This document shows, piece after piece, positions 18,567 through 36,461 of a stretch of DNA of 36,461 nucleotides. The notes below the pieces were generated by a model, which saw nothing but the letters and a program-made list of their open reading frames with translations, ran no database searches and was not told where the DNA came from. The position numbers and the translations under genes are program-made. Numbering within the stretch: the first letter of the stretch is position 1; the number at the start of each line of letters is the position of its first letter. The stretch is taken from contig CALIRD010000153.1 in the NCBI GenBank assembly GCA_938042355.1, forward strand, positions 1-36,461, read 5' to 3'. Source of the stretch: an uncultured Thiotrichales bacterium (GTDB lineage: Bacteria; Pseudomonadota; Gammaproteobacteria; CAZUMV01).

Positions 18567-18593
18567 TGTGGGCTGAATTTGGAGGAATGAGTC

Positions 18594-19070: not shown

Positions 19071-19108
19071 CGACTACATAAATAATAAAAGTAGATTAAA
19101 AACCTTAG

Positions 19109-19135
19109 GAGCCTGTTATTACAGGCTCTTTTTTT
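19109..19135 (+). terminator. Intrinsic terminator after ssb
   Basis: GAGCCTGT (19109-19116) pairs perfectly with ACAGGCTC (19121-19128) around a TATT loop, followed by seven T. It separates ssb from the polysaccharide genes downstream. Confidence 0.93.
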
Positions 19136-19380
19136 AGTTGATGTTTTTAGTGTGTCGGGAGCGTGATTAATAAATGTTATTTCATCGCAGGTGCCTAATA
19201 ACCAAGTGTTGTGTCGCGGGTATTTACTTGATATGTTAAAAATAATGACTCGAGAATTTGATCCAGTTCAATAAACTGTGTGTACCCTGTTGGCGTTGTC
19301 ACTGTTTTACTTTTCAAAAATGGCAATAAAACCGGCAAATTGGCATACTTGCCCAATAAATATCGGGTGAAAGTCACAAC
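19136..19380 (+). promoter_or_regulatory. Intergenic stretch before rmlA, presumed promoter region
   Basis: The 310-nt gap between ssb and rmlA holds the ssb terminator and then about 245 nt without a credible ORF. Because rmlA follows a strong terminator, a promoter for the sugar genes is expected here. I see TTGTCA at 19297-19302 but no good -10 box at the right distance. No JUMPstart/ops-type element was found. The role is inferred from position only. Confidence 0.3.
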
Positions 19381-20265
19381 ATGTCAAAACGTAAAGGGAT
19401 TATCCTTGCAGGTGGATCAGGCACGCGTTTGTATCCACTCACCATCTCGGTCAGTAAACAACTAATGCCGATCTATGACAAGCCGATGATTTACTATCCC
19501 TTGTCGACACTAATGTTAGCTGGGATTCAAGATATTCTGATTATTACTACGCCTGAAGACTCTGCTTCATTCCAGCATCTTTTGGGCGATGGCTCCCAAT
19601 GGGGTATGAACCTTAGCTTTGCTGTGCAGCCAAGTCCGGACGGTTTGGCACAAGCCTTTATCATTGGCAAAGAGTTTATTGGCGATGATAGCTGTACCTT
19701 GATTCTAGGCGACAATATATTCCACGCCGATGGTTTAGCCGAAAAGCTACAAGCCGTGAGCAATGATCTAAGTGGTGCCACAGTCTTTGGTTACTATGTG
19801 TCTGATCCTGAACGTTACGGTGTGGTAGATTTTGATGCTCAGGGTAAAGCGCTCAGCATTGAAGAAAAACCTGTCAAGCCAAAATCTCATTATGCGGTGA
19901 CCGGGTTATATTTTTATGATAATGATGTGGTCAATATTGCCAAAGAAATAAAACCATCACCACGGGGCGAGCTGGAAATTACCGATGTGAATAATGTTTA
20001 TCTCCAACGTGGAGATTTGCGAGTCGAAAAATTAAGCCGGGGAACGGCCTGGTTGGATACGGGAACGACAGCGTCTTTACTGGATGCCGCAAACTTTATT
20101 CGTGTTATTGAAGATAGACAATCACTAAAAATTGCATGTCCCGAAGAAATTGCGTATTTGCAAGGCTTTATAAATGAAGAACAGGTACGTGCGATAGCAG
20201 AGCCTCTGCGCAAAAGTGGTTATGGTGAATATCTCTTGAATGTTCTAGCCGAGCGTACCAACTAA
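19381..20265 (+). CDS. rmlA: Glucose-1-phosphate thymidylyltransferase
   Basis: RmlA (RfbA) makes dTDP-glucose from glucose-1-phosphate and dTTP, the first step toward dTDP-rhamnose. The product has 294 residues, a normal length. The nucleotide-binding signature [11 protein letters not shown] is at 11-21, [12 protein letters not shown] holds the metal-binding Asp111, and EKP and [10 protein letters not shown] are typical of the family. The stop directly abuts the rmlD ATG (no spacer), so the genes are coupled in one operon. Confidence 0.96.
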
Positions 20266-21147
20266 ATGAAAATTCTAATTACTGGTGCGGCGGGTCAGGT
20301 TGGTTGGGAATTACAGCGCTATCTGAGTGAGTCGCGACTAGCATCCGAAGTTATTGCTGTTTCCAGACTTGAGTTGGATGTTACCAACTATCAGCTGGTT
20401 CAGGAAACATTAAGTCAACACAAGCCAGACTGGGTGATTAATACTGCTGCATATACAGCAGTTGATCGAGCAGAAGATGATAAGAACCTTGCGCATGCCA
20501 TTAACTCGGATGCAGTAGGACGCTTGGCTGCAGTGTGCAAAAAAATTAATTCCCGGTTGTTGCATATTTCTACGGACTACGTGTTCGATGGCAATAGCTC
20601 GAGTTCATATGTACCTACCGATAGTACAAATCCCATTAATATTTACGGCAAGAGTAAGTTGGCAGGTGAGCTTCAAATTTTACATACTTTAGGCCAAGAT
20701 ACGTTGATCATACGAACCGGGTGGGTGTATTCAGCACACGGGCAGAATTTTGTTAAAACCATGTTGCGCCTGATGAGTGAACGCCAAAAAATTCAGGTGA
20801 TTGATGATCAGGTAGGTTCTCCTACCTGGGCGGGCGAATTGGCGCGAGTCATCTGTCTTGCAGTAGAAAAAGATGCACGTGGATTGTTTCACTGGACTGA
20901 TGCGGGTGTGGCGAGTTGGTACGATTTTGCCAATGCGATTTTACGTAACAGTCGGCGTTTGAATATTTTGAAAGATGAAATTGACATAATCCCGATATCA
21001 ACAGATGAATATCCAACCAAAGCGCAACGACCCAAGAATAGTGTGATGTGTAAACGGTCAATTCGCTCCGCTTTGGATTATCGTGGGCGTCACTGGAGAG
21101 AAACATTAAAAGATATGCTCATGGATGTGCAGAATGGGGTCAGCTAG
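20266..21147 (+). CDS. rmlD: dTDP-4-dehydrorhamnose reductase
   Basis: RmlD (RfbD) reduces dTDP-4-keto-L-rhamnose to dTDP-L-rhamnose. The product has 293 residues, an extended SDR with the N-terminal dinucleotide motif GAAGQVG (7-13), HISTDYVFDG and the catalytic YGKSK. It begins immediately after the rmlA stop and overlaps the start of rmlB. Its normal substrate is made by RmlC, but no rmlC gene is seen in this window. Confidence 0.94.
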   Translation: MKILITGAAGQVGWELQRYLSESRLASEVIAVSRLELDVTNYQLVQETLSQHKPDWVINTAAYTAVDRAEDDKNLAHAINSDAVGRLAAVCKKINSRLLHISTDYVFDGNSSSSYVPTDSTNPINIYGKSKLAGELQILHTLGQDTLIIRTGWVYSAHGQNFVKTMLRLMSERQKIQVIDDQVGSPTWAGELARVICLAVEKDARGLFHWTDAGVASWYDFANAILRNSRRLNILKDEIDIIPISTDEYPTKAQRPKNSVMCKRSIRSALDYRGRHWRETLKDMLMDVQNGVS

Positions 21148-22234
21148 ATCTCTATTAGTTACCGGCGCCGCAGGCTTCATTGGTGTCAATTTCGTCTACT
21201 ACTGGTTACAACAGTATCCACAAGATAAGGTCATTGGTCTCGATGCACTGACCTATGCCGGTAATCTGTCAAGCCTTGAAGACGCCCTTGAAAATAACAA
21301 TTTCAGTTTTGTGCAGGGGGATATCCGGGATCAGGAAATGATAGAGTCTCTGATGGCTGAGCACAGTATCGACACGATTGTGCATTTCGCTGCAGAATCA
21401 CACGTCGACCGATCAATCAGCGGGCCAGATGCATTTATTGACACCAATATCATTGGTACACATAGCATGCTCAAAGCCGCGAGAAATCAGTGGCTGTCAT
21501 CGGATGCACCTGAACCACATCGTTTCCATCATGTTTCAACGGATGAGGTATATGGTTCACTGAAACGAGATGACCCTGCCTTCACAGAAACAACTCCATA
21601 CAAGCCGAGCTCACCGTATTCAGCGAGTAAGGCAGCATCCGATCATCTTGTACATGCCTATGCTCATACTTATGGGTTAGAAACCACGATCAGTAATTGC
21701 TCCAATAACTATGGCCCGTATCAATTTCCGGAAAAGTTAATTCCGCTAGTATTGATCAATATTCTGCATGGCAAAGAGTTACCCATCTATGGTGATGGGA
21801 AACAAATACGTGATTGGCTGTATGTCGCTGACCATGCCAGAGGTATCGATTTAATTATTAACAAAGGTCGTGTGGGCGAGACCTATAATATCGGCGGTCA
21901 TAACGAGTGGCAGAATATCGATATAGTGACGCTTATCTGTGAACGTATGAATCAGCTTGCTACCGAGAATGACGAACTCAGGAAGCAATTTCCAAACATG
22001 CCAGATGATGCGAAGAGTTTAATTACTTTTGTGAAAGATCGTCCTGGACATGATCAACGTTATGCCATTGATGCCCATAAGAGTACGACTGAGTTAGGTT
22101 ATGTGCCTGAAGAGAGTTTTGAAACGGGTATCAAGAAAACAATAGAGTGGTATCTGCAACAGCAAGGCTGGTGGCAAGCGGTTATGGATGGTAGTTATAA
22201 AGAATGGATTTCAAGTCAATATCACCAAAAGTAA
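21125..22234 (+). CDS. rmlB: dTDP-glucose 4,6-dehydratase
   Basis: RmlB (RfbB) converts dTDP-glucose to dTDP-4-keto-6-deoxyglucose. The ORF from ATG 21125 gives 369 residues; the in-frame ATG at 21134 (366 residues) is equally possible, and both overlap the end of rmlD. The NAD-binding motif GAAGFIG, the HHVSTDEVYG active-site segment and the YSASKAASDH YxxxK pair are intact, as is NCSNNYGPYQFPEKLIP. The order rmlA-rmlD-rmlB is unusual compared with the common rmlBDAC order. Confidence 0.95.
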   Translation: MCRMGSARSLLVTGAAGFIGVNFVYYWLQQYPQDKVIGLDALTYAGNLSSLEDALENNNFSFVQGDIRDQEMIESLMAEHSIDTIVHFAAESHVDRSISGPDAFIDTNIIGTHSMLKAARNQWLSSDAPEPHRFHHVSTDEVYGSLKRDDPAFTETTPYKPSSPYSASKAASDHLVHAYAHTYGLETTISNCSNNYGPYQFPEKLIPLVLINILHGKELPIYGDGKQIRDWLYVADHARGIDLIINKGRVGETYNIGGHNEWQNIDIVTLICERMNQLATENDELRKQFPNMPDDAKSLITFVKDRPGHDQRYAIDAHKSTTELGYVPEESFETGIKKTIEWYLQQQGWWQAVMDGSYKEWISSQYHQK

Positions 22235-22282
22235 ATTTATCTGTCGTACAATTAAAGTACTGAATTAAAAAGTAGAATTATC

Positions 22283-23611
22283 GTGAATATCACAATTTAT
22301 GGTTCAGGTTATGTTGGCCTTGTTACTGGCGCCTGTTTAGCAGATGTTGGTAATAATGTTTTATGCGTAGATATTGATCAACAAAAAATCAAAAAGCTTA
22401 AAGAGGGTGATATTCCTATCTTTGAGCCAGGCCTTTCTGATCTAGTCAGCTCATCTATAAAGTTAGGCAATATTGATTTCACAACCGATATGCAGCATGC
22501 GGTTGATCATGCTGAGCTGCAGTTCATAGCCGTTGGTACGCCTCCTGATGAAGATGGTTCTGCTGATATTAGCGCGGTTTTGCGTGTTGCTAAAACAATT
22601 GGCTCCTTAATGGAGGAAACCAAGATCATTGTCGACAAGTCTACAGTGCCGGTCGGTACGGGAGATTTGGTAGATGCCGAAGTGAAATCGCAGCTCGATA
22701 AACGCCAGGTAGATTTTGATGTACATGTGGTATCGAATCCCGAGTTCTTAAAAGAAGGCGCAGCTATACCCGATTTTATGAAACCTGATCGTATTGTGAT
22801 CGGAACGGAGTCTGAACTGGCAATCGAAAAAATGCGTAAGTTATATGCGCCGTTCTGTCGTCAGCGTGATCGTATTATTGTGATGGACAGGCGCTCCGCT
22901 GAGTTGACCAAGTATGCTGCCAATGCCATGTTGGCCACCAAAATCAGTTTTATGAATGAGCTTTCTCAAATCGCTGAAAAAATGGATGCAAACATTGAGT
23001 TAGTGCGTAAAGGTATTGGTTCTGATCCACGAATTGGTTATCACTTTATCTACCCCGGTATTGGCTATGGTGGTTCATGTTTTCCTAAAGACGTAAAAGC
23101 TCTGAGGCAAACGGCACTGGACGTCGGTATTGAGCCATTTGTTTTATCTGCTGTAGAGCAGCGCAATGAAAAGCAGAAGAGAGTGTTGTTTGACAAAGTA
23201 AATCAGCACTATGATGGTGAGCTGAATGGGAAGACGGCAGCGATCTGGGGTCTTTCTTTCAAGCCCAATACTGATGATATGCGAGAAGCGCCGAGTCGAG
23301 TTTTGATGCAACAGTTATGGGATGCCGGTGTTACTGTTCATGTCTATGATCCTGAAGCGTTGGATGAGTGTCGACGAATCTACGGTGAACGTGATGACCT
23401 GGTCTACTTTGACAATCATATGAACGCAATTGAAGGTGTGGATATGCTCTTGATCTGCACTGAATGGAAAGTGTTCAGAAGTCCGAATTTCAAGGCGATT
23501 GCAGCTAATGTGCGCGACAAGATTGTGTTTGACGGTCGTAACCTCTATCAGTCTGAATTAGTTGCAGAAGCCGGTTTACAGTATCAGTCCATAGGTCGAC
23601 CTCAAAAATGA
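22283..23611 (+). CDS. ugd: UDP-glucose 6-dehydrogenase (GTG start)
   Basis: The enzyme oxidises UDP-glucose to UDP-glucuronate with two NAD+. The product has 442 residues. Start is the GTG at 22283, since GSGYVGLVTGACLA directly follows and no earlier start fits. The NAD-binding GxGxxG is at 7-12, STVPVGTG follows, and the catalytic Cys266 lies in YGGSCFPKD with Lys210 in SAELTKYAANAMLA. A 48-nt gap separates it from rmlB. Its stop overlaps the ATG of the next gene (ATGA), linking it to UDP-glucuronate epimerisation. Confidence 0.95.
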   Translation: MNITIYGSGYVGLVTGACLADVGNNVLCVDIDQQKIKKLKEGDIPIFEPGLSDLVSSSIKLGNIDFTTDMQHAVDHAELQFIAVGTPPDEDGSADISAVLRVAKTIGSLMEETKIIVDKSTVPVGTGDLVDAEVKSQLDKRQVDFDVHVVSNPEFLKEGAAIPDFMKPDRIVIGTESELAIEKMRKLYAPFCRQRDRIIVMDRRSAELTKYAANAMLATKISFMNELSQIAEKMDANIELVRKGIGSDPRIGYHFIYPGIGYGGSCFPKDVKALRQTALDVGIEPFVLSAVEQRNEKQKRVLFDKVNQHYDGELNGKTAAIWGLSFKPNTDDMREAPSRVLMQQLWDAGVTVHVYDPEALDECRRIYGERDDLVYFDNHMNAIEGVDMLLICTEWKVFRSPNFKAIAANVRDKIVFDGRNLYQSELVAEAGLQYQSIGRPQK

Positions 23612-24624
23612 CAACTTTGGTTACAGGCTGTGCTGGTTTTATTGGCATGCATACCTGCCTGGAGTTGTTGAAAAGAGGGAATAGGGTTGTCGGCCTCGAT
23701 AATCTGAATGATTATTATGATGTTTCTTTGAAGAACGATCGTCTCACTGAAATAAAAAATAAAAGCGATGATTCGACGTTTGTGTTTTACAAAATAGATG
23801 TTAAAGATACGCAACAATTAAAAACGCTCTTTGAGCAAGAAAAAATTGAGGCTGTTATACATCTTGCAGCTCAGGCCGGTGTTCGCTACTCCAAAGAATT
23901 CCCGGTACATACTATTGAGTCCAACATTCTGGGGTTCATTAACATTCTGGATAATTGTGTTCGTTCTGATATTCAGCATCTTGTGTATGCATCCTCCAGC
24001 TCCGTCTATGGTGCCAACCAAAAAATTCCATATGCCGTTACAGATGGTGTTGATCATCCGGTATCTATCTATGCGGCGACCAAAAAAAGTAATGAGTTGA
24101 TGGCACATGTGTATAGTGACATGTATCAATTGCCTACAACCGGATTGCGTTTTTTTACGGTCTACGGCCCATGGGGCAGGCCCGATATGTCACCTATGTT
24201 ATTCGCTAAAAATATCCAGTCAGGTGAACCCATCAAGGTTTTTAATCACGGTCAGCATAGCCGGGATTTCACGTATATTGATGATATTGTAAAGGCTGTA
24301 GTTGACGTTATGGAAACTCCAGCCACAGCCGACCATTCATGGGATTCCAGAGAGCCAAATCCATCCAGTAGCGAGGCTCCATGGCGTATATATAACATTG
24401 GCAATGAAAAGCCTGTCGAGTTAATGACTTACATAAATGAGATCGAATCTGCCCTGGATAAAAAAGCTATTATTGAATTTCTGCCCAAGCAGGACGGAGA
24501 TGTAGAGAGAACCTGGTCGGATACATCAGATCTAGAGCGCTTGGTAGGATTTAAGCCTGAAACCCAACTTTCAGTGGGAATTGTTAAATTTATTCGTTGG
24601 TATAAAAGCTACTTCAAATTATAG
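23608..24624 (+). CDS. UDP-glucuronate 4-epimerase family protein
   Basis: This is an extended SDR sugar epimerase with 338 residues, most like bacterial UDP-glucuronate 4-epimerases (LspL/CapI type), which make UDP-galacturonate. Visible motifs are GCAGFIG (7-13), LDNLNDYYDVSLK, AAQAGVRYS, YASSSSVYG, the catalytic Tyr155-x3-Lys159 in YAATKKSNE, and the family-typical RFFTVYGPWGRPDM. The overlap with ugd, which makes its presumed substrate, supports the assignment. A UDP-GlcNAc epimerase role is possible but fits less well. Confidence 0.88.
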   Translation: MTTLVTGCAGFIGMHTCLELLKRGNRVVGLDNLNDYYDVSLKNDRLTEIKNKSDDSTFVFYKIDVKDTQQLKTLFEQEKIEAVIHLAAQAGVRYSKEFPVHTIESNILGFINILDNCVRSDIQHLVYASSSSVYGANQKIPYAVTDGVDHPVSIYAATKKSNELMAHVYSDMYQLPTTGLRFFTVYGPWGRPDMSPMLFAKNIQSGEPIKVFNHGQHSRDFTYIDDIVKAVVDVMETPATADHSWDSREPNPSSSEAPWRIYNIGNEKPVELMTYINEIESALDKKAIIEFLPKQDGDVERTWSDTSDLERLVGFKPETQLSVGIVKFIRWYKSYFKL

Positions 24625-24978
24625 GAACCTTGTCACATTTGCCAAGTCTACTGTGACAGTTACCTCACAAGCGTGAAGGAATACGCGACCACAGTTCACA
24701 ATCTCATGTAGTATGCGTTCAACTGTTAGGAGAACAGCTGATAAAGGATGAGTGCAAGAGTTTCAAGGACAGAAGCTTACCTAATGCGATTCATTAATTT
24801 GTTTGTTAAAAAAGACAGATAGTGATCTAGCAAAAATACTTTAATCCCTGAACTCATGTTTTTACCGCTGACACTATCAAGTGATAAACGGTATTTATTT
24901 TAAGCTGAGAATTGCAGGTCATGCATTCCAATCAAGGATAATGTGCGACCAGATTTAAATAAGTTACTTGAGGATTAT
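24625..24978 (+). other. 354-nt non-coding gap before wecB
   Basis: No credible ORF is present. The stretch contains an inverted repeat at 24631-24658 and, further on, a weak hairpin (ACCG 24864-24867 with CGGT 24889-24892, enclosing CACT/AGTG) followed by an AT-rich run that could act as a weak terminator. A promoter for wecBC would be expected here, but no -35/-10 pair stands out. The wecB ribosome-binding site (GAGG, 24970-24973) lies at its end. Confidence 0.4.
24631..24658. repeat. 7-bp inverted repeat after the epimerase gene
   Basis: TGTCACA (24631-24637) and TGTGACA (24652-24658) are separated by 14 nt, starting six bases after the epimerase stop. There is no T-tract, so it is either a protein-binding dyad, an unusual transcription end, or chance. 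Confidence 0.5.
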
Positions 24979-26214
24979 ATGAGAATTTTATCTGTTATGG
25001 GTACCCGACCCGAAGCGATCAAAATGGCGCCACTGGCAATTGCATTAGCTGAAGATCCGCGCTTTGATGCCAGAGTATGTGTTACAGCTCAGCATCGAGA
25101 AATGCTGGATCAAGTGCTGGATCTTTTCGAAATCAAGCCTGAATACGATTTAGATATTATGAAGCCGGGACAAAGTTTGTCTGATGTGACTACTGCAATC
25201 CTCACAGGTATGCAAAATGTATTTGCTGAATTCAAACCCGATATAGTACTGGTGCACGGCGATACTGCTACTACAATCTCAACCACTCTGGCAGCTTTTT
25301 ATCAACAGATACCCGTCGCACACGTTGAGGCTGGTCTACGTACCGGAAATCTCTACTCACCGTGGCCGGAAGAAGCCAATCGAAAAATGACCGGAGTTTT
25401 GGCAGAAATACATTTTGCTCCGACATCAACCTCTGAAGCTAACCTGTTAGCCGAGGGTGTTGACGCTACAAAAATCCACGTTACTGGAAATACTGTTATT
25501 GATGCGCTTCTTGAGGTGGTTGAAAAAGTCAGTTCCAGAGATGACTTACAGCAACAATTTCAAAAGCAGTTCGAGTTCCTGGGTGATAGCAACCGCATGG
25601 TGCTGGTAACCGGGCACAGGCGAGAAAACTTCGGCGATGGTTTTGAAAACATTTGTCAGTCATTACTGCAAATAGCAAAAACTTTTCCAGATGTAAATGT
25701 GGTTTATCCGGTTCATTTAAACCCCAATGTAAGAGAGCCAGTCAATCGTCTACTTAGAGATGTTAGTAATGTGCATCTAATCGAGCCTCTTGATTACTTG
25801 CCATTTGTGTATCTGATGTCGAAAGCGACCATTATTTTGACTGATTCGGGTGGGATTCAAGAAGAAGCGCCGTCATTGGGCAAACCTGTGCTTGTCATGC
25901 GTGATACTACTGAACGACCTGAGGCAGTGGACGCAGGCACGGTAAAACTGGTCGGGACAGATCCTGATAACATCGAAAGAAACATCATAGAGTTGCTAAC
26001 AAATGATGTGGCTTACCACTCAATGAGCCAGGCTCATAACCCATATGGTGATGGTAAAGCATCGCAAAGAATTATTCGTGCCTTGGCTGATTATGCAGTT
26101 GATACACAAACCGACTTGTTAGGGGAGAATATTGATACTCCCGCTACACAATTAACCATGAAGAATAACGCTGCAGGAATGCAGAGTATTATCTCTGTTG
26201 AACCTGTGCTTTAA
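24979..26214 (+). CDS. wecB: UDP-N-acetylglucosamine 2-epimerase (non-hydrolysing)
   Basis: WecB interconverts UDP-GlcNAc and UDP-ManNAc. I chose ATG 24979 because a GAGG ribosome-binding site lies 5 nt upstream and [19 protein letters not shown] is the family N-terminus. With this start the catalytic residues Asp95, Glu117, Glu131 and His213 fall at the same numbers as in E. coli WecB. An upstream GTG at 24943 would add 12 residues without support. The protein has 411 residues against 376 in E. coli; the extra ~35 residues are a polar C-terminal tail (from about DYAVDTQTD). The gene pairs with wecC 9 nt downstream. Confidence 0.95.
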
Positions 26215-26223
26215 GGAAATAAA

Positions 26224-27519
26224 ATGAATTTTGAAAGAATATCAGTGGTAGGATTAGGCTATATAGGATTGCCAACTGCAGCTGTTTTTGCGTCACGTAA
26301 AAAGAGTGTCATTGGGGTTGATGTCAACCAAGATGCAGTAGACACGATTAATAGAGGTGAAATTCATATAGTCGAACCTGATTTAGATATGGTCGTCATG
26401 GGTGCTGTATCGCAAGGGTATTTAAAGGCAACTGTTACTCCCGAGCCTGCAGATGCTTTTGTAATTGCAGTACCTACACCTTTTAAAGATGATCATGTGC
26501 CAGATTTGGCTTATATAGAGGCGGCTAGTCGCGCGATTGCGCCTGTGCTTGAGAAAGGAAATTTAATTATTCTTGAGTCAACTTCGCCAGTTGGAGCTAC
26601 GGAGCAAATGGCAGATTGGCTATCTCAAGAAAGACCGGATCTAAGCTTTCCTCAAACTCATGGGGAAGAATCAGATATAAGGGTAGCTCATTGCCCAGAG
26701 CGAGTTTTGCCAGGACAGGTGTTAAGAGAATTAGTAGATAATGACCGCGTTATAGGTGGTATGACGCAAAAATGTTCTGAGGCTTCAGTGCAGTTATATA
26801 AAATTTTTGTTGAAGGCGAGTGTGTTATAACTAATGCGAGAACTGCTGAAATGGCAAAGTTAACCGAGAACAGTTTCCGTGATGTAAATATTGCATTTGC
26901 CAATGAGCTATCAATCATCTGTGATAAGCTTGATATCAATGTCTGGGAGTTAATCCAACTAGCGAATCGTCACCCTCGAGTTGATATTCTTCAGCCAGGA
27001 CCGGGTGTGGGAGGGCATTGCATAGCAGTGGATCCATGGTTTATTGTCAATAAAACACCAGATGAAGCTAAAATTATTAAAACTGCGCGTGTGGTGAATG
27101 ATGGTAAGCCTCAAATTGTAATTCAGACAATAACTTCTCACGCAGATAGATTGAATACAAAGACAGTACTGTGCCTGGGAGCTGCCTTTAAACCAGATAT
27201 TGACGATCTCAGAGAAAGCCCGGCCTTACGGATCATTAAATCGATTGCGTCTAAGGGCTATGCAGTAAAAGTTGTAGAGCCAAATATCGATACTTTGCCT
27301 AATGATTTACTTGAGCAAGGGTGCGAACTAATTAGTTTGGAAGAGGCGATTGATTATAAAAAACCAAATGCATTAGCTGTGCTTGTGGCACATAGACAAT
27401 TTGCAACCTCAAATGAACTGCGACTACAAGCACCTCTGGATTTTTGTGGTGCACTCAAAGAACGTAGAGCTGACAGACGTGCGATACAAGAATCTGCGGG
27501 TGTTGTGGAAGAGAAGTAG
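26224..27519 (+). CDS. wecC: UDP-N-acetyl-D-mannosamine dehydrogenase
   Basis: WecC oxidises UDP-ManNAc to UDP-ManNAcA using NAD+. The product has 431 residues of the UDP-sugar dehydrogenase family: VVGLGYIGLPTA (8-19), VPTPFKDDHVPDL, ESTSPVGATE, AHCPERVLPG, and catalytic Cys266 in GVGGHCIAVDPWF, which is the WecC-type rather than the Ugd-type context. It follows wecB by 9 nt with an AAGGAAAT ribosome-binding site. The product would feed ManNAcA into a capsule, O-antigen or enterobacterial-common-antigen-like polymer. Confidence 0.94.
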   Translation: MNFERISVVGLGYIGLPTAAVFASRKKSVIGVDVNQDAVDTINRGEIHIVEPDLDMVVMGAVSQGYLKATVTPEPADAFVIAVPTPFKDDHVPDLAYIEAASRAIAPVLEKGNLIILESTSPVGATEQMADWLSQERPDLSFPQTHGEESDIRVAHCPERVLPGQVLRELVDNDRVIGGMTQKCSEASVQLYKIFVEGECVITNARTAEMAKLTENSFRDVNIAFANELSIICDKLDINVWELIQLANRHPRVDILQPGPGVGGHCIAVDPWFIVNKTPDEAKIIKTARVVNDGKPQIVIQTITSHADRLNTKTVLCLGAAFKPDIDDLRESPALRIIKSIASKGYAVKVVEPNIDTLPNDLLEQGCELISLEEAIDYKKPNALAVLVAHRQFATSNELRLQAPLDFCGALKERRADRRAIQESAGVVEEK

Positions 27520-27612
27520 TAAATTATCAATTCCTAAGGCACATAAAGTATCAGTTTCAGCAATACTGATGATAAGGTATTGTCTAGTACTCTCCTACTG
27601 CACCATCCAAAA

Positions 27613-29172
27613 ATGCCGCAATTGACTCATTTCATAAAATGGAATTTATTGGTCCCCTTCGTTTCAAGAATGAAGAAATTGAAACGAAGCATCATAAAAA
27701 ATAAATTACAAAAGTTACGACAAGAGGCGGTAGAGTTAGAGCGCGCCGGTTATCTTGAACATGCGCGAAAAAAAATACTGGAAATGAAGTCTTCTTTCGG
27801 AACAAGCGATCTCGCTAGACTTGGTAACATCGAATGGCGATTACAACTATTAAATACTGGCTACCCTTTCCCTCAGGAAACTAATTCTAAGTTAAATACC
27901 GAGAAAAATACCGTAGCGATTTTGTTATACAACAGCCTTCCCTATACATCAGCAGGTTACGCAACTCGTAGTCACGGTCTGGCGCTCTCGCTCATTAAAA
28001 AGAACTGGAAAGTTGAGTGCTTAACCAGATATGGATTTCCAACAGATATAAGATTAAACGAAGGGAGAAATGTAAAAGCACAAGAAGAAATAGATGCAGT
28101 TCTTTATTCGCGGTTACTTCCTGTGGTAAGTGAGGTTGTGACAATTGGTAGTGAAAAATACTATTTGTTAAATAATGAGGCAGTTACTGAACGAATAAAG
28201 AAAATCAGGCCGTCTGTAATTCATGCCGCGTCTAATCACATAAATGGTATAGCTGCATGTGTGGCTGGAGCAAAACTTGGTATACCAACTATTTATGAGG
28301 TTCGAGGTCTCTGGGATATAACGCGTGCCTCTGCAGAGCCAGAATATGGAAACAGTGAATTATATTATCAGTCACTTCGCCTTGAAATTGATGTCTGCAA
28401 TAAAGTAACGAAAGTTTGTGTTATTACTTATGCGCTAAAAGAGTATTTGGTTGCGAAAGGAGTGGAGGCTGAAAAAATTACAGTAGTGCCGAATGGTGTT
28501 GATACGACACGTTTTAATCCAATGCCACGTGACCAGCACTTACTACATAAATTGAAATTAAGTAATAAAGTGATTATAGGTTATGTTGGTTCTATGCAGC
28601 AGTATGAGGGGCTGGATATTTTGTTAAATGCACTTTTTCTTTTAAATGGTAAAACCAAGTCAGGTTTTCACTTTTTAGCTGTAGGAGATGGTACCGAGTT
28701 ACAGTCCCTCAAGAAAAAAGTATCTCAATTAGGTTTAGACGAGGTCGTCACTTTTACTGGAAGAGTGCCTTATAATGATGTTGATCGTTACTACTCGCTA
28801 ATAGATATTTGTCCATTTCCACGTAAGGATCAGTTAGTATGCCAATTGGTATCTCCATTGAAACCTTTTGAGGCGATGTCAATGAGTAAGGCCATAGTAG
28901 TCTCAGATGTCAATGCACTTAAGGAGTCAGTTGAGCATAACGTCAATGGCTTGGTTCATAACGCCGGGGATGAAGGTGATCTTGCTGAGAAACTTAGAAT
29001 ATTAATCGATGATTCGAGTCTAATTGAAGAGCTCGGAAAAGCTGCACGAGAGTGGGTTGTTGAGCATCGTGACTGGCAGGCTATAGCTAAAAAGTTAGTT
29101 GGGGTATATGACAGTGCTATCAAATTGGATTGTCAGAGTGATGAAGTGCATAAGTCGCAAATGAGGATTTAA
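27613..29172 (+). CDS. GT4-family glycosyltransferase with helical N-terminal extension
   Basis: This is a retaining GT-B glycosyltransferase of the GT4 type; donor and acceptor are unknown. From ATG 27613 it has 519 residues. An in-frame TTG at 27580 and an ATG at 27670 are alternative starts; none has a good ribosome-binding site. Residues ~20-80 are charged and helical (LQKLRQEAVELERAGYLEHA), possibly TPR-like. The Rossmann domains begin near 100 (VAILLYNSLPYTSAGYATRS). Family motifs VVPNGVD (291-297), YVGSMQQYEGLD and SPLKPFEAMSMSKAIVVSD (about 414-432) are clear. The 3' end contains the ribosome-binding site for the next gene, so the two are co-expressed. Codon usage is AT-rich. Confidence 0.85.
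   Translation: MPQLTHFIKWNLLVPFVSRMKKLKRSIIKNKLQKLRQEAVELERAGYLEHARKKILEMKSSFGTSDLARLGNIEWRLQLLNTGYPFPQETNSKLNTEKNTVAILLYNSLPYTSAGYATRSHGLALSLIKKNWKVECLTRYGFPTDIRLNEGRNVKAQEEIDAVLYSRLLPVVSEVVTIGSEKYYLLNNEAVTERIKKIRPSVIHAASNHINGIAACVAGAKLGIPTIYEVRGLWDITRASAEPEYGNSELYYQSLRLEIDVCNKVTKVCVITYALKEYLVAKGVEAEKITVVPNGVDTTRFNPMPRDQHLLHKLKLSNKVIIGYVGSMQQYEGLDILLNALFLLNGKTKSGFHFLAVGDGTELQSLKKKVSQLGLDEVVTFTGRVPYNDVDRYYSLIDICPFPRKDQLVCQLVSPLKPFEAMSMSKAIVVSDVNALKESVEHNVNGLVHNAGDEGDLAEKLRILIDDSSLIEELGKAAREWVVEHRDWQAIAKKLVGVYDSAIKLDCQSDEVHKSQMRI
27657..27689. repeat. 11-bp perfect inverted repeat around an ATG
   Basis: CTTCGTTTCAA (27657-27667) and TTGAAACGAAG (27679-27689) are perfect complements with an 11-nt loop that contains the in-frame ATG at 27670. 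No T-tract follows on either strand. A smaller inverted repeat (ATCAGT 27550-27555 with ACTGAT 27565-27570) lies 87 nt upstream. Confidence 0.8.
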
Positions 29173-29173
29173 A

Positions 29174-30895
29174 TTGAAGAGTCAATCCTTTAGTTCGATT
29201 ACTTGGTTCAAAGCGTTAAGCGCGAAAATGTACAGGGTGGTACCTGGTCATACCTCACTAATTGTTATTTTAGACCTTTTATCCCAGATCTCTCTGATTT
29301 TGGCATTTTTCTTACCACTAAAAGTGATTATCCTCCTTGGATCCCCAGATCTACCCGAGTACTTTCCTAGCAGTTGGCATACTATTGAGCGTGATCGTCT
29401 GGTTGTTTTATTGTCTCTTTCCGCAGCAGTTGCTTATTTATTTTATGCTATTGTAGATAAGCTGGTAACTGTACTGACTGAGCAGGCGGCAGTAAAAATA
29501 CTAAGAACAAAGCCTCATCTACTTGAAGATATCAAGCACGAGACAATGACAAAGTTGTTATATGGGCGGTATGTGAAAATCGTCTCGAGTTTGTTGTTTT
29601 CATTGATAGCAATAATTTCAATTGCTTTCATTTACACCTCTCTATTACTGCCCTTGAGCGTGTTTTGTTTAATAGCAGGTTGTGTAGTCTATTTTATTAT
29701 TGCTAATCGAAGGAAAGTAAACTCTAACCCGTTTTCTAATATTAATGTGATTATTACTACCATAGGTGCGTTAGGTTTTTTATCGATGTTTGCATTTATG
29801 GTGAGTGATTTTATTATCTTGCCAGCACCTGGTGTTATCGCAGCAGTGATTGGATTATTACTCGTCAGGCAGTTATTTTCACGTTTGGTGGTTTTCGTTG
29901 TTAACACAACACGATTGATTGAAAACAAGCCAGTTGTGAATACGCTCTTTTTTAACCAAATAGAGTCTAAAAGTATAGCGTCTGTCAACGAAAAAAGTGC
30001 CTGGGAAATGGTGCATCAGGAGCAGAGGGAAAATTGGATTCACCCTATTCTTAAAAAGCATATGGACAGTGATACATCTGCGCTTAAGATTGAATGCATT
30101 GAGTTAGGAGAAGATGGTGTAGTTGCAATGATTGTGACTAATCTACTTATGAGTTCAAATAGTCATCATTCCAGACTCTTGCTTAAGCTTTATGATAAAA
30201 AATGTTCGCAACTATCCCGTCAAGAATCTATTTTATTGCAGAAAAACCTAGTCAATCACCTATGGCCAAAGATGTTAGCTACATACAAAGTGGGTGATTT
30301 TAATTGTCACGTATATGAGTGGCGTTCTTCAGAAATCTTACCTGAGAGCGAGTACTTGGTTAGAAATGTAGAAATTCTTGACACCTTAATGTCTACACCG
30401 GTATCTAAAAAATTACTAAGAGAGTTTGATGACTCGCGTTTTGAGACTTTTGGAAGCCTTGACGAAACAACTCTGAGGAGATTGTATTTATGTGCAAGTC
30501 CTCCAGAGACTGATTTGCTAGATACGCTGGTAGCCATTAAGCCGAAAATTATGAAAATTTGGCGGTCTTCACCAAAACAAATAGTGAATCCGGATATTAC
30601 TAAAGATAATGTATTAGTCACTGACGATAAGAGAGTATTCACATTACATTGGGGTAGGTGGTCATTACAGTCAGTAGGCTCCGGCTTGTTTATAAATCCT
30701 GAAGTCTACTCCAAATTGCCTCAAATATTTATTTCGGCAAAACAAAGTAGAGAAGACCTGAAGACTTTTTCTCTCAATACAATCAGATTGAATGCTTGTG
30801 TCTACGAATTCGAGAAGTTGTGTGCAATGCACAAATATAATTTAGCGTTAAAGGTATTGCCCGAGCTCGTCGAACACGCGTCAACACACGAATAA
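29174..30895 (+). CDS. Membrane protein with six-helix domain and degenerate kinase-like domain (TTG start)
   Basis: I do not recognise this 573-residue protein as a named family. The TTG at 29174 is supported by GAGGA at 29163-29167, 6 nt upstream; ATG 29228 is the alternative. Six membrane helices are predicted at about 29-55, 76-95, 136-156, 157-177, 192-213 and 219-243, arranged like an ABC-exporter membrane domain but with no ATPase domain. The cytosolic part (about 275-573) looks kinase-like: LLLKLYD with Lys338 (beta-3 type), Glu351 in SRQESILL, NPDITKDNVLV with Asp474 and Asn479 (catalytic-loop type, with Asn in place of His), and HWGRW (491 onward) where the metal-binding Asp of DxD/DFG would be His492. 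It is coupled to the glycosyltransferase upstream and converges on the 1319-residue gene. Function is unknown; activity may be lost. Confidence 0.75.
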   Translation: MKSQSFSSITWFKALSAKMYRVVPGHTSLIVILDLLSQISLILAFFLPLKVIILLGSPDLPEYFPSSWHTIERDRLVVLLSLSAAVAYLFYAIVDKLVTVLTEQAAVKILRTKPHLLEDIKHETMTKLLYGRYVKIVSSLLFSLIAIISIAFIYTSLLLPLSVFCLIAGCVVYFIIANRRKVNSNPFSNINVIITTIGALGFLSMFAFMVSDFIILPAPGVIAAVIGLLLVRQLFSRLVVFVVNTTRLIENKPVVNTLFFNQIESKSIASVNEKSAWEMVHQEQRENWIHPILKKHMDSDTSALKIECIELGEDGVVAMIVTNLLMSSNSHHSRLLLKLYDKKCSQLSRQESILLQKNLVNHLWPKMLATYKVGDFNCHVYEWRSSEILPESEYLVRNVEILDTLMSTPVSKKLLREFDDSRFETFGSLDETTLRRLYLCASPPETDLLDTLVAIKPKIMKIWRSSPKQIVNPDITKDNVLVTDDKRVFTLHWGRWSLQSVGSGLFINPEVYSKLPQIFISAKQSREDLKTFSLNTIRLNACVYEFEKLCAMHKYNLALKVLPELVEHASTHE

Positions 30896-30922
30896 CAGTT
30901 TGCGAACAACAAATCACAATCA

Positions 30923-33900
30923 TCAACTGCCATAATTTTGACTATCTTGAGATCTGAAGGCTATTGCCTTGTTAGAAAGGCTGATTACATTTTCTCGGTT
31001 AATGATAGTGTTTTCTTTCCCCTGCGGTGTTCTAAATAAATCGATTTCTTGACTAATAGTTTGGTCTATTGATGTTTGGTTTCTGACCCTGGCTGCGGCG
31101 TTTTCTGACATTGACAAATATAGCTCTTTGTTAAGATATAGTTTCTCAATTCCATTTGCTAAACCTTCAGCATCTTCCGCTTCTGCCAGAATGCCACAAT
31201 TTTTATCCACAAATTCTGGGATAGCAGCTACTGCTGTAGTGATTGGAACCAGGCCTGATGACATTGCCTCATCTCTTGAGACACCCTGAGAATCGGTTCG
31301 TGTTGGTACGAGTAAGACGCCATATTCTTTATGTAGTGCTGCAATTTCACTATGGGTTAAAAATTTCTGCATTAGTTTGACGTTCTTGTATTTTTTTACT
31401 GGCTTTGTAAGCTCATCAAACAACTCCCCATCACCAACAATTAAAAACTCTAATTCTGAAAACCACTCTTTAGTTGATAGTAATTCAATCGCTGCTATTG
31501 TTAGGTCATTTGCGTATTTACGAGATGCGAATGGACGAATTGATAGAATTTTTTTACGCTGAGCGGGGGGTTTTTCAACATAATTAAACACATGAGTATC
31601 AATCGGATTATGGATGATTGAGTACTTTGATTTAGGGACAGTTACTCCCAAGTCGTTCATAATTTCATCAGCGAAATATTGTGAGACGAAGACAAAATTC
31701 AAGTTCTCAGGGATGTTGGCAAATAGCTCTCGCCAAAATTTCATGCGATGTTCGCATAGTGCTTTAGTGTGCTCAACCTCAGCATTATCCATGCGTTCGA
31801 ATTCATATGTTCGTCTCTTCCAATGCTGGATTTCAGCTCCATGTATCCATGCCGTTACTTTGATGTCCGAAATATGCGGCTTTAAAATTTCCCACATATT
31901 TTTATCCATAAGATGTACCAATACATGCTCGTATTGTCCGGTTTCAATAGTATTTCTGAAGAGATGGTTGTCGCCGCTAACTACGTCAACATTTTCGAAT
32001 TCCTGGAAAAATTTATTCGGGTGTTGGTCGAGTTTGAAAACATCAACATCAGTCTGTAGATCTTTATAAGCTTTGACACGTGAATGCAGGAATCCATACT
32101 TATATAAATCATCATATGAAGGATACTGCTTTGTCATTACTAAAGCTGTGTTGTTTGCTACAACTGTCATTGGGGCTTCTTTGTTTTTTGCAAAAGTGAC
32201 CTTTCGAATGCTGGATAAGCCATTTCCAATAACTTTAAATCCTAGTCTTATATGGGTGCATTCATTGGGAATTGCCAAAGTTGTTGAGTCTTGAACTGGA
32301 CCAATATGGTGAGAGGTTTTGTTTTTATCTGAGTCGAGAAATTCAAATACTATCTTTATATGGTTTTCTTTTGTTTCACAAGACACCTGGAATTCACTGT
32401 TTTTGTTCAGGTTGAGTTCATCACGACTATATAAATTATCTAGATAGAAATAGTTATGCTGACCTGCCCCAAGTTTTGATTCAATTGTCATCTGGTTTTC
32501 ATGCATTGCTAATTTGAGTCTGCTGGATTGTGGTTGCGTGATTGACTCCATAATCGCTTCAGCGGTCAGGGTTATTTGGTCTGGTGATGGGAGTTTTTCA
32601 TTACTCTCCCTAGCTCTCAGAGAGTTTGCAGTTTGATAGAGATTATGAAGGTTTGCACCAATGTCCAGATCTTTTAAGTCGCTTACAAGATTCTCATAGA
32701 ATTCTGGTGAATATTTGGTAGCATTTTTACAGTAATGAAATTCATCCAAGGCTATAAGCGTTTTTTCAGATCTAATAATGGCATCATCGGGTGAGCTAAT
32801 AAATGCATTTAATACTCCATCATCTAGAATTTGATCGCTGATGATTGAACAGCGTAGTGGTAGATCGCCTGTTAGTTTGTATTGTTGATTATCGTCGGCA
32901 ATGAGGCATTGATCATTTTCCATGTGATAGAAGGTTTTCTTGCCATAGGCGTATCCTTCTGTATATTTCTCACCAGCCATTAGGTCAGTAAGAAAGTTTG
33001 TACCATAATAATCCTTGGGGTTAATGAATCCGTAGTACTGCGCTTTTCCAGACTCTTTATATAAGTCAGAAATTTCCGAAGTTATTTGGATATTTTGGTT
33101 TAGGTCAATACCCATAGTTTTACTCTTCGTATATATGACCAGTCTTTTGTTGGAGTAGTTTTGTCTTGTGAACTGTTCTATTACATTCTCAGCATCTTTC
33201 GCCGAACTGACTACGCTAAACACTAAAATTTCTTTTTCTTTTTGTTCGAAAGACCATTCCCGTAGCGTTAGTAGTAAATAATGTAATCTATGTCTATAAG
33301 TGTGCTCACTCATTACTTTTCTCAAAGCCATGAGGCGATGTTTTCTGTAAACAAGTTCTGAATCATTCAGTGGTGTTAATCGACGCTCTATTTCTGAATT
33401 GTTATCAGATGAAATCACAAGGTCACCAAACAATCTTCTCATGCCACGTGAAAAATTACTCACTACAATAGTGTTTGACGCCATCAATTCGAATACTCTT
33501 CGAGCGAACATGCTTTGTGATTCTTTTATTGTATTTAGATTGATACCATATTTATATCCCTTGTATGCAATATCAATATCTTCGAAAGGCAGGGTGCCTA
33601 CTATGTGTTTATTAAAAGACTCTGGAAATTGATAATGTGGATGGTCGTTTTCGTAGTTTCTATCGTAAATATCCAATTTGCCAAACTCACTTACCGCGTT
33701 CACTAGCATACCAATGTCACGCTGTCGCTCCGGGTAGCGCAGGTAATAAGACCCGGCAAAACAAAAACCGTCTTTTCTTTTTTTGCTTTCAATTGGATTG
33801 TGATTTTTAGTTTGTGCTGCAAACGGTAGAAAATACACATTGTCTGTTTCACAGTCATATTTGTATTTTGGTATGCAATCAACGTCGGTTGTAAATATGA

Positions 33901-34882
33901 AGTCAACCTGCCGTGCAATTTCTAAAAAAGTCGAATAATGCGCAGGGTCTTCCTTATTCCAAAGCATACTTGGAATGTTCTGACTTTTGCACCAGGCTAT
34001 TATTGATTTTATTTCAACAGAGTTATTGCTGATTTTAGTCTTCCATAGACCATCTAATCCTTGCCAGGCAGATTCAATGAAAACAAAATGTGGGGCAAAG
34101 TCAATTAGTTGTTGTTTCCAGTTAACAGGGTGTATCTGCAGCACATTGCATTCATTTTCATATGAGTGTTGTGTGAAGGGATCCATTATTCCTGCAACTC
34201 TAATTTCTTTCAGGGTTTCGGGTTTGGACTTTGTGGCTTCATATAAAGATGGGATCAATGCATCTGAACTAAATACATTATTTGGTAACTTGTTGCTTGT
34301 TTTCCTCTTAGCTGGCACGACTTTCTGGCTGGATACATCAATGATCATTTCATTTATTAGCAACCTTCCTTTTCCTTCGATGCGTAAGTTGAGAATAACC
34401 TTTTTGATGCCTTTTCCTGGTGTGTATCGTTTCTTTTGATTCAGTGCAATCCTTTGAATCCCGGTTCTGTAAGAGTGCCCATCAAACTCGAGTATATTCA
34501 GCGAGCACTTTAGATCCCCGGTAATGGTCCCAATGCAGTAAAGGTCCAATACCGTGTTTGTGTTTACCGATATACCTGATGATTTTGCAATTTTTTTATA
34601 CTCGCTCGTTTGAGCGTTATGAATGAAATTCAGTTCTGAATTTTTAGTGATAGTAATACTGGTGCCAAATTTATTACACTCTGTTAATACGTGCTTAGCT
34701 GCTACATTATTGTTTGTGTTCCATCCAAGGCTTGCGAATTTCTTTAGCCCCCTGACCTTAAAAAAGATATCTCTGTTATTGTATAAATGTTGGCTGATTC
34801 TTTCAGGTGACCGAAAAACTAGTAATCTATCTATTTTTTTTTGCGGAGTCTGGATACTTATTGGGGCTTTATATTTTTTCAT
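30923..34882 (-). CDS. Giant multi-domain glycosyltransferase (CgeB-like and GT4 modules)
   Basis: This 1319-residue protein has several modules. Residues ~55-185 look like a beta-sandwich. About 225-545 resemble the CgeB/DUF3880 GT-B glycosyltransferases (FCFAGSYYLRYPERQRDI, KYGINLNTIKESQSMFARRV, FELMASNTIVVSNFSRG). About 550-740 resemble a degraded GT2-like fold (ILVFSVVSSAKDAENVIEQF). About 785-900 are a second beta-sandwich. About 905-1285 are a GT4 domain with AWIHGAEIQHW, IHNPIDTHVF, LSIRPFASRKYAN and TRTDSQGVSRDEAMSSGLVP (1195-1214). No signal peptide or membrane helix is seen, so it is cytosolic. It is encoded opposite to its neighbours, in AT-rich DNA. It probably adds more than one sugar to a surface glycan; acceptor and donors are unknown. 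Confidence 0.82.
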   Translation of the reverse strand: MKKYKAPISIQTPQKKIDRLLVFRSPERISQHLYNNRDIFFKVRGLKKFASLGWNTNNNVAAKHVLTECNKFGTSITITKNSELNFIHNAQTSEYKKIAKSSGISVNTNTVLDLYCIGTITGDLKCSLNILEFDGHSYRTGIQRIALNQKKRYTPGKGIKKVILNLRIEGKGRLLINEMIIDVSSQKVVPAKRKTSNKLPNNVFSSDALIPSLYEATKSKPETLKEIRVAGIMDPFTQHSYENECNVLQIHPVNWKQQLIDFAPHFVFIESAWQGLDGLWKTKISNNSVEIKSIIAWCKSQNIPSMLWNKEDPAHYSTFLEIARQVDFIFTTDVDCIPKYKYDCETDNVYFLPFAAQTKNHNPIESKKRKDGFCFAGSYYLRYPERQRDIGMLVNAVSEFGKLDIYDRNYENDHPHYQFPESFNKHIVGTLPFEDIDIAYKGYKYGINLNTIKESQSMFARRVFELMASNTIVVSNFSRGMRRLFGDLVISSDNNSEIERRLTPLNDSELVYRKHRLMALRKVMSEHTYRHRLHYLLLTLREWSFEQKEKEILVFSVVSSAKDAENVIEQFTRQNYSNKRLVIYTKSKTMGIDLNQNIQITSEISDLYKESGKAQYYGFINPKDYYGTNFLTDLMAGEKYTEGYAYGKKTFYHMENDQCLIADDNQQYKLTGDLPLRCSIISDQILDDGVLNAFISSPDDAIIRSEKTLIALDEFHYCKNATKYSPEFYENLVSDLKDLDIGANLHNLYQTANSLRARESNEKLPSPDQITLTAEAIMESITQPQSSRLKLAMHENQMTIESKLGAGQHNYFYLDNLYSRDELNLNKNSEFQVSCETKENHIKIVFEFLDSDKNKTSHHIGPVQDSTTLAIPNECTHIRLGFKVIGNGLSSIRKVTFAKNKEAPMTVVANNTALVMTKQYPSYDDLYKYGFLHSRVKAYKDLQTDVDVFKLDQHPNKFFQEFENVDVVSGDNHLFRNTIETGQYEHVLVHLMDKNMWEILKPHISDIKVTAWIHGAEIQHWKRRTYEFERMDNAEVEHTKALCEHRMKFWRELFANIPENLNFVFVSQYFADEIMNDLGVTVPKSKYSIIHNPIDTHVFNYVEKPPAQRKKILSIRPFASRKYANDLTIAAIELLSTKEWFSELEFLIVGDGELFDELTKPVKKYKNVKLMQKFLTHSEIAALHKEYGVLLVPTRTDSQGVSRDEAMSSGLVPITTAVAAIPEFVDKNCGILAEAEDAEGLANGIEKLYLNKELYLSMSENAAARVRNQTSIDQTISQEIDLFRTPQGKENTIINRENVISLSNKAIAFRSQDSQNYGS

Positions 34883-35153
34883 TTAGAGTCACATCCTGTG
34901 AAGCGATCAATAGTATTGTTAGACTAAAAGATTGTAGTCTTAGAAACTTTAAATAGAGTTGTGTATGTTTCTGAGAGTAAATTATACAGTTTGCAGCGTT
35001 CGAATTTGGCAATTATTAATGAATAGTAAGTGTTCGAGTTCACATAATTGAAAATCACGAATTGTTGAAGGTTTAATTCATACATCTGCGTAGTGATTTC
35101 ATATTCAGATCACTTATTATGCTGTAATTGCAGCTTAACAAGTTATCTTTTTA
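34883..35153. promoter_or_regulatory. Divergent intergenic region between two glycosyltransferase genes
   Basis: The 271-nt AT-rich gap separates two divergent genes and should hold both promoters. Near the minus-strand gene lies the dyad TCACA-TCC-TGTGA (34889-34901), which overlaps its possible ribosome-binding site (AGGA on the minus strand). A weak plus-strand promoter candidate is TTGCAG (34991-34996) with TATTAA (35014-35019), 17 nt apart. No ORF is credible here. Confidence 0.3.
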
Positions 35154-36455
35154 ATGGAACAAAGAATACAAGTATCAATGATCGTTTGGAATGAGTTTCT
35201 AAATGATGCAAGAGTGCTGAAAGAGGCAGAGTCTCTACAAGCTGCTGGATATCAGGTCATCGTTTATGCACTCAAGCTTAGAGCTCAGACTCCCCGATAT
35301 ACAACATTGATTTCTGGTGTGGAGGTTGTACGGGTGGAGCATTTGGGTACGCTCGGTAGAATAAGTAAATTTTTACAGCGCGTGTTTTTGTTCAAGGCGG
35401 TGAGGGTAACCTCTTCGGTAGAAAAAAAGCCCAGTGGTCCGATTAATAAAATTCCTTTGCGAAGAAGAATCATTCTGGTTACCAGGCGCATGATGACCCA
35501 TCTGCGTTTATTGAGGATGTTAATTGCTTCAAAGCCGGATGTTGTACAGGCACATGATGTGAATACGCTGGTAACTGCATGGCTGGCCGCCAAAATTCGG
35601 CGTGTGCCATTGGTGTATGATGCCCATGAAATCAGTACCGATAGAGAAGGGTATGCCAGTTTTCGTAACCTGGTAGGGTGGGTCGAGAAACGTTTGATGC
35701 CGGGTACCGCCTTTTCAATTACAACGACTGATACTCGCGCGAAATTTTTTGCGCGTGCGTATGGCATACCGCGTCCTTTGGTATTACAAAACAGGCCTCG
35801 CTATCAGGAAGTGAAAAATACGGATCGAATACGCACCGAGTTGAATATAACTGATGATTTACCGATTGTTTTGTATCAAGGCGGATTGCAACAAGGCCGA
35901 GGCTTACATCGAATTGTTGATGCGGCCAAAAGTGTTACCAATGCTCATTTTGTGCTGATTGGAGGCGGGCGTTTAGAAGACACTTTGAAACAACAGTCAA
36001 TTGATGCTGGATTGGAAACGCGTGTTCATTTTATTCCAACCGTAGCCCTTGCCGAACTACCTGAATACACCGTTTCAGCCGATATAGGTGTGCAGGCAAT
36101 TGAAAATACCTGCCTCAATCATTTTTCGACCGATTCAAACAAGTTATTTGAGTACTTGGTCGCAGGATTACCTATTGTTGCTACCAACCTGCCTGAAATA
36201 CGGAAAATAGTTCGAGAATTCGACTTGGGTCATTTAGTCGCGCCCGGTGATACCGTACAATTAGCCGGTGCTATCCAGAAGTTGGTGGATAGTGAAGAGC
36301 TGAGAAAAAAATTCACGCTCAATGCCAGCAATACAGCGAAAGAACTGAATTGGCAGGCTCAGGAAAAGGACTTTATTGATGCCTACACGGATGTCGTCAA
36401 TGCTAATTATCAACAATCTTCAATAGGGCAATCTGTTGAAGATACTATTCCTTAG
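35154..36455 (+). CDS. GT4-family glycosyltransferase
   Basis: This 433-residue protein is a GT-B glycosyltransferase. The N-terminal domain shows VWNEFLNDARVLKEAESL (11-28) and VVQAHDVNTL (130-139), then PLVYDAHEI (152-160). The C-terminal nucleotide-sugar domain has VLYQGGLQQGRG (239-250), FVLIGGGRLED, and the family E-rich motif NKLFEYLVAGLPIVATNLPE (329-348). It is typical of capsule or exopolysaccharide clusters; the donor is unknown. It is divergent from the giant glycosyltransferase, ends six bases before the window edge, and may head an operon that continues beyond it. A clear ribosome-binding site before the ATG is lacking. Confidence 0.88.
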   Translation: MEQRIQVSMIVWNEFLNDARVLKEAESLQAAGYQVIVYALKLRAQTPRYTTLISGVEVVRVEHLGTLGRISKFLQRVFLFKAVRVTSSVEKKPSGPINKIPLRRRIILVTRRMMTHLRLLRMLIASKPDVVQAHDVNTLVTAWLAAKIRRVPLVYDAHEISTDREGYASFRNLVGWVEKRLMPGTAFSITTTDTRAKFFARAYGIPRPLVLQNRPRYQEVKNTDRIRTELNITDDLPIVLYQGGLQQGRGLHRIVDAAKSVTNAHFVLIGGGRLEDTLKQQSIDAGLETRVHFIPTVALAELPEYTVSADIGVQAIENTCLNHFSTDSNKLFEYLVAGLPIVATNLPEIRKIVREFDLGHLVAPGDTVQLAGAIQKLVDSEELRKKFTLNASNTAKELNWQAQEKDFIDAYTDVVNANYQQSSIGQSVEDTIP

Positions 36456-36461
36456 TTATTA

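Follow-up and report, generated by a model that had tools for sequence, protein, structure and literature searches.

Within a 36,461-nt stretch of DNA from an uncultured Thiotrichales bacterium, hereafter the window, we analyzed P0001, a 1319-residue protein that carries several glycosyltransferase (GT) modules in one chain (Table 1). From its modules, their homology, their patterns of motif loss and conservation, and the surrounding genes, we infer that P0001 is probably a cytoplasmic bifunctional polymerase of a surface glycan containing N-acetylmannosaminuronic acid (ManNAcA), in which a decayed GT2 relic and beta-rich modules would serve as a scaffold or chain holder; activity, donors, alternation of the two transferases, glycan binding and the scaffold role all belong to the predicted part of this reading. 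Multi-module polymerases determine the structure of bacterial surface glycans, and module gain and loss in such polymerases is little known; the relatives of this one enzyme show intact, decayed, truncated and replaced modules.

The original prediction had listed a CgeB-like GT-B module, a GT2 remnant and a C-terminal GT4 module in a single chain, with catalytic and beta-rich modules interleaved along it, and both the list and the interleaving hold; the size and position of the reading frame were also correct, while its strand, left unstated, is minus. PF13524 (Glyco_trans_1_2, CgeB-like) matches residues 413–537 above its cut-off of 25 bits (E 3.6e-14), and DUF3880 (PF12996), which proteins P0002 (35.9 bits) and P0003 (34.0 bits) pass, reaches 24.4 bits over residues 310–370, slightly below its cut-off of 25.2. 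At the other end, PF00534 (Glycos_transf_1) covers residues 1106–1263 (E 1.8e-18, cut-off 26.4 bits), with PF13692 matching the same stretch, and the Pfam scan of P0001 returned no further domain kind above cut-off. The canonical GT4 motif is E-x7-E; P0001 has D1197-x7-E1205, with D rather than E at the first position, and this D-x7-E form is kept in all seven aligned sequences, one of them free-standing.

Between these two modules, residues 546–765 have no PF00535 match and their DxD is replaced, so that an active GT2 is not found there, yet their descent from a GT2 domain is evident from profile comparison. Profiles of the relic group and of the intact group align with a probability of 99.2 (hhalign, E 1.6e-19), the window segment alone matches the intact profile at E 8e-7, and five column-shuffled controls gave probabilities of at most 0.3; a plain linker at residues 550–740 is thereby ruled out. 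In an alignment of the CgeB and GT2 region covering 14 relatives, the catalytic motifs are intact in five (P. albus, Citrobacter, G030a, G030b, which has DIDD, and G741), and the DxD, ED-type and HTW-type positions are gone from the other nine (the window protein, three from Leisingera, Caballeronia, Paracoccus seriniphilus, G633, Rossellomorea and Cytobacillus), in all of which YYGxxYLxD-like, GK and DxFNY-like positions are still present. PF00535 matches six of six intact-type proteins scanned, namely these five and that of E. coli ATCC 8739, and none of the nine relics in this region. Judged by its motifs, this domain is a catalytically dead remnant of a GT2, and no third activity is to be expected of it. 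The earlier suggestion of a multi-linkage enzyme survives as the best reading of the chain for two activities, not three. On the tree of CgeB modules the intact or decayed state requires two changes, and long branches leave it unsure whether decay had a single or multiple origins.

Full-length homologues share the module order of P0001 and are 39–47% identical to it over about 1,070 residues. Among the plasmid matches listed, they occur in Leisingera aquaemixtae (46.6% over residues 228–1287), Leisingera sp. NJS201 (41%, with a second paralogue) and Caballeronia insecticola (39%), and P. seriniphilus matches at 33% over residues 219–993 of P0001; the plasmid set leaves aside 48 further matching records, and H37 (Niallia), a CgeB-type match, was left out of the locus comparison. 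One more full-length homologue comes from G633, a genome of the same class as the window. Across the 15 pairs formed by six full-length chains, mean identity is 55.2% for the CgeB module, 28.1% for the relic, 25.7% for the internal beta module B2 and 51.2% for GT4, a pattern that fits two working ends joined by a loosely constrained middle. The two NJS201 paralogues are adjacent (L025:11875-20215), and each shares about 41% identity with P0001.

Genes for WecB and WecC are present in six of six loci of the full-length clade, the window included, and because of this constancy the product glycan most likely contains ManNAcA. Of the 11 CgeB-type plasmid loci fetched, 10 encode a dehydrogenase that resembles WecC more than Ugd, versus two of eight control loci hand-picked from GT4-only match rows (Fisher P 0.006). 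CgeB-only genes also adjoin wecB-wecC in S. meliloti, E. coli pCE1537-B and E. coli ATCC 8739, and because of this the CgeB module would be the likelier user of UDP-ManNAcA; with the wecB-wecC setting mostly constant, the donor of this module is directly testable. In Citrobacter and E. coli, wecB-wecC is adjoined by a CgeB module followed by an intact GT2, and the chromosomal capsule locus of ATCC 8739 (L047:10141-16465) holds a CgeB-only gene, wecB, wecC and a CgeB-GT2 gene. The Citrobacter CgeB-GT2 gene has a match in 54 of 5,426 E. coli genomes, with the capsule locus examined in one. ManNAcA and glucose are constituents of the K7 antigen of E. coli. We found no text tying the ATCC 8739 capsule locus to K7, the accessible part of PMC13171606 included.

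Taken together, the neighborhood and the modules suggest a route in which WecB and WecC would make UDP-ManNAcA, the probable donor, the CgeB module would transfer ManNAcA to a lipid-linked chain, and the C-terminal GT4 would add a partner sugar, most likely in turn with CgeB. The GT2 relic would stay on as a structural or acceptor-binding spacer without catalysis, and the growing lipid-linked chain may be held by the middle of P0001, that is, by the relic and the beta modules. Two sets of known proteins help to place this proposal. The capsule glycosyltransferase CgeB-GT2 of E. coli ATCC 8739 and Citrobacter p1C73 (PF13524 and PF00535), for which we found no tested function, resembles P0001 in its CgeB module with a GT2 fold behind it, its N-terminal beta-rich stretch and its adjoining wecB-wecC; unlike P0001, it has an intact GT2 and lacks both B2 and a C-terminal GT4, and unlike the window, its gene sits in an ABC-transporter capsule locus among capsule-synthesis neighbors. 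The closest working model is given by the polymerases described in the available part of PMC11231755, which carry several GT modules per chain, in O3 and O5 with one module per linkage type, together with the terminators described there, which bear a coiled-coil ruler. P0001 resembles WbbB and WbdA (terminator WbdD) in that a single polypeptide with multiple GT modules serves a single polymer (PMC11231755, as available); the comparison is one of architecture rather than of GT family, and that part of the source mentions no decayed GT module. The Pfam scan of P0001 found no terminator domain such as polymerase-terminator single chains (WbbB/WbdD type) would have.

Several observations weigh against a ManNAcA polymerase. 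We found no member of the enzyme family with tested activity; P0001 is encoded on one strand, and wecBC and gt4a on the other; and Ugd-like and dTDP-rhamnose genes in the window make other donors available. In place of the lysine that follows RPF in GT4, Caballeronia has V and G479 has R. The link between CgeB and wecC does not hold for P. albus, G030, G741 and G673, and the comparison behind it uses plasmid loci that are not phylogenetically independent, with flanks of 7–12 kb against 12 kb in the controls, one of which, an Enterobacter locus with wecBC, is unclean in that it carries a distant relative of the entire GT4 module. In that Enterobacter hormaechei plasmid (L051:8692-13065), the GT4 relative is free-standing (24.5% over 379 alignment columns) near wecC, and the wecB match falls in two pieces. 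As for export, Poly_export proteins and an ABC2-type permease are present in the window genome, and the KpsC/KpsS family has no match in this assembly, which is about 72% complete.

Other divisions of labor within the chain would also account for some of these data. Both GT-B modules could be active without alternating, one setting a primer or branch sugar once and the other a different single residue, with gt4a and another GT4 building the rest of the repeat; such an assembly enzyme, which would be no polymerase, is a possibility we consider doubtful but take seriously, given that the window does hold gt4a and a second GT4 gene and that the Caballeronia locus holds several more GTs. Against it stand the FkbM methyltransferase joined to the same chain in G633 and the precedent of multiple GT modules per chain in polymerases of the ABC-transporter pathway (PMC11231755, in the part available).

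The middle domain might instead have changed its chemistry, for instance into a metal-independent GT2-like transferase, which would make the chain trifunctional. The YYGxxYLxD-like, GK and DxFNY-like positions kept in relics and intact forms alike speak for this, while the joint loss of the DxD, ED and HTW motifs, and a mean identity of 28% in the middle beside two modules above 50%, make it improbable. Nor do we give much credence to a chain in which GT4 alone works and CgeB serves as a GT-B for regulation or acceptor binding: in its favor, none of the open-licence PubMed Central (PMC) papers listed by our searches assigns an activity to a CgeB or DUF3880 glycosyltransferase; against it, no module is better conserved than CgeB (55%), which is also found on its own in wecBC loci. 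A bifunctional polymerase with two working ends is the reading that we favor.

The two beta-rich stretches, B1 near the N terminus and B2 ahead of GT4, had been predicted to be similar beta-sandwiches forming an internal repeat, with paired strand-turn-strand strings that we locate at residues 167–180 and 883–897. Aligned directly, the two segments show no significant repeat (blastp E ~1, hhalign P 0.39). B1 itself scored 17.9, against at most 15.3 for 30 B1 shuffles. A probable kinship appears when profiles are ranked against 3,586 background segments. With a B2-only profile, the top rank goes to the N-terminal domain of Rossellomorea (E 1.8e-4), and B1 comes fourth, outranked by two background segments, with Citrobacter 11th and E. 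coli 44th; once B2 is bridged with Rossellomorea, B1 ranks second, above all background segments yet at E 0.065, with the Citrobacter domain third and the E. coli domain sixth. The N-terminal stretch of P. albus gave no match in these comparisons. The bridged ranks suggest that B1 and B2 are probably one mobile module, related only through bridging sequences, so that an internal repeat in P0001 is plausible but weak, favored by the bridged profile and not by direct comparison.

B2 itself is all-beta in a single-sequence model of low confidence (pLDDT 44); a single-sequence AlphaFold model of residues 1–919 reached pLDDT 32 and was not used. Searched against the PDB with Foldseek, the B2 model ranked Asp3 first (5vae_B, E 3.5e-4, TM 0.54), and the further matches include Gap3 and another Asp3 structure; VIA Z scores for Asp3/Gap3 were 8.4, 8.1 and 7.7, where Z ~8 can be background, and many unrelated jelly-roll proteins stand at Z 7–8. 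Structures of carbohydrate-binding module (CBM) families CBM16, CBM22 and CBM61 are likewise among the fold matches of this model. For the carbohydrate binding suggested earlier, these CBM-like folds and the Asp3-like one are leads from a low-confidence model, and no Pfam CBM profile matched B1 or B2. Nine members compared with 24,736 Pfam models produced two matches only: a Leisingera sequence matched Sec-ASP3 (PF15432) at E 0.098, and the one from Caballeronia matched Phage_fiber_C at E 0.1. The best PF15432 score, in that one of the nine members, is 13.2 bits against a cut-off of 27, and no PF15432 match at E 10 was found in 11 searched genomes or records. The likeness of B2 to Asp3/Gap3 of the accessory Sec system, a fold match together with a sub-threshold Pfam match, is a lead; unlike B2, Asp3 is a separate protein that functions in export of Gram-positive glycoprotein adhesins (PMC5578698, in the part available). 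In the proposed polymerase, B2 would be a mobile accessory domain, as B1 probably would too, with a possible role in holding the chain as it grows.

Relatives of P0001 differ in which modules they retain. In P. seriniphilus, B2 is followed by a short N-terminal stub of GT4 (blastp against Leisingera E 1e-7, with a few B2 residues in the query; E 7e-7 when the profile was run on this one sequence) and then by an intact GT2 (PF00535, residues 817–931), so that in this chain a second module has been replaced. Its CgeB module falls within a clade of seven full-length-type chains (support 100/99; own fork 89/89), and Rossellomorea, with the relic and no C-terminal transferase, is sister to the full-length clade (93/94). 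In G479 a separate gene encodes the GT4 on its own (38% over 374 aa). The G633 homologue, of about 1604 aa (L035:8296-13107, minus strand), has an FkbM methyltransferase domain (residues 57–205) in front; by uniting methyltransferase and polymerase it resembles the WbbB, WbdA and WbdD systems, and it is a possible all-in-one polymerase and terminator. Behind FkbM lies a stretch that looks coiled-coil-like, as judged by eye only. Most speculatively, these chains could represent a ManNAcA-glycan polymerase lineage evolving by decay and replacement, in which a transferase that has lost its active site would persist as a pseudo-enzyme holding the chain, followed by a mobile Asp3-like beta module and by a newly acquired C-terminal transferase (GT4, or GT2 in P. 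seriniphilus), pseudo-GT2 and beta modules together acting as a processivity clamp; we regard this as tentative and rather unlikely.

Table 1. Features of P0001, its neighborhood and one relative (window positions unless a locus is named).
Feature	Coordinates	Strand	Evidence
Whole reading frame, P0001, 1319 aa + stop	30923..34882	minus	open reading frame call, full-length homologues
B1, N-terminal beta-rich stretch, residues 55-190	34313..34720	minus	weak kinship with B2 via Rossellomorea N-terminal domain
CgeB-like GT-B module, residues 226-545	33248..34207	minus	PF13524, 53.4 bits; mean pairwise identity 55%, six chains
Decayed GT2 module, residues 546-765	32588..33247	minus	hhalign against intact GT2, E 1.6e-19; catalytic motifs lost
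Lost GT2 DxD site, residues 619-627 (FINPKDYYG; DDDD in Citrobacter)	33002..33028	minus	alignment
B2, internal all-beta module, residues 770-905	32168..32575	minus	low-confidence model, profile searches
C-terminal GT4 module, residues 910-1290, D1197-x7-E1205	31013..32155	minus	PF00534, 67.1 bits; motif in 7/7 aligned
wecB, UDP-GlcNAc 2-epimerase	24943..26214	plus	TIGR00236, 547.7 bits, cut-off 210
wecC, UDP-ManNAc dehydrogenase	26224..27519	plus	NF008286, 681.5 bits, cut-off 459
gt4a, GT4-type glycosyltransferase	27580..29172	plus	relatives in Leisingera and Caballeronia loci
573-aa protein	29174..30895	plus	between gt4a and the window enzyme gene
P. seriniphilus chain with module swap	L027:11995-15486		

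At the search thresholds applied, members of the enzyme family are rare. In full-length searches, the genome of the window was the sole match among 369 from the class at E 1e-40, and five of 398 genomes of the phylum matched at E 1e-15, with G633 the one new full-length chain; a B2 profile run on 398 genomes of the same phylum (Pseudomonadota) found only the window's own genome and G633. The viral contigs searched yielded no confirmed homologue, and weak GT4-only matches occur in two of 50,697 phage records.

The window cassette runs rmlA, rmlD, rmlB, an ugd-like gene, an SDR gene, wecB, wecC, GT4, the 573-aa protein, the window enzyme gene (opposite strand) and a further GT4. GC content drops stepwise from about 0.45–0.50 to 0.37 over this polysaccharide cassette (positions 18000–36461), which suggests a variable or acquired island. 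The 573-aa protein has no plasmid relative at E 1e-3; its N-terminal half is hydrophobic, and its match to choline-kinase-like proteins is very weak (E 0.008).

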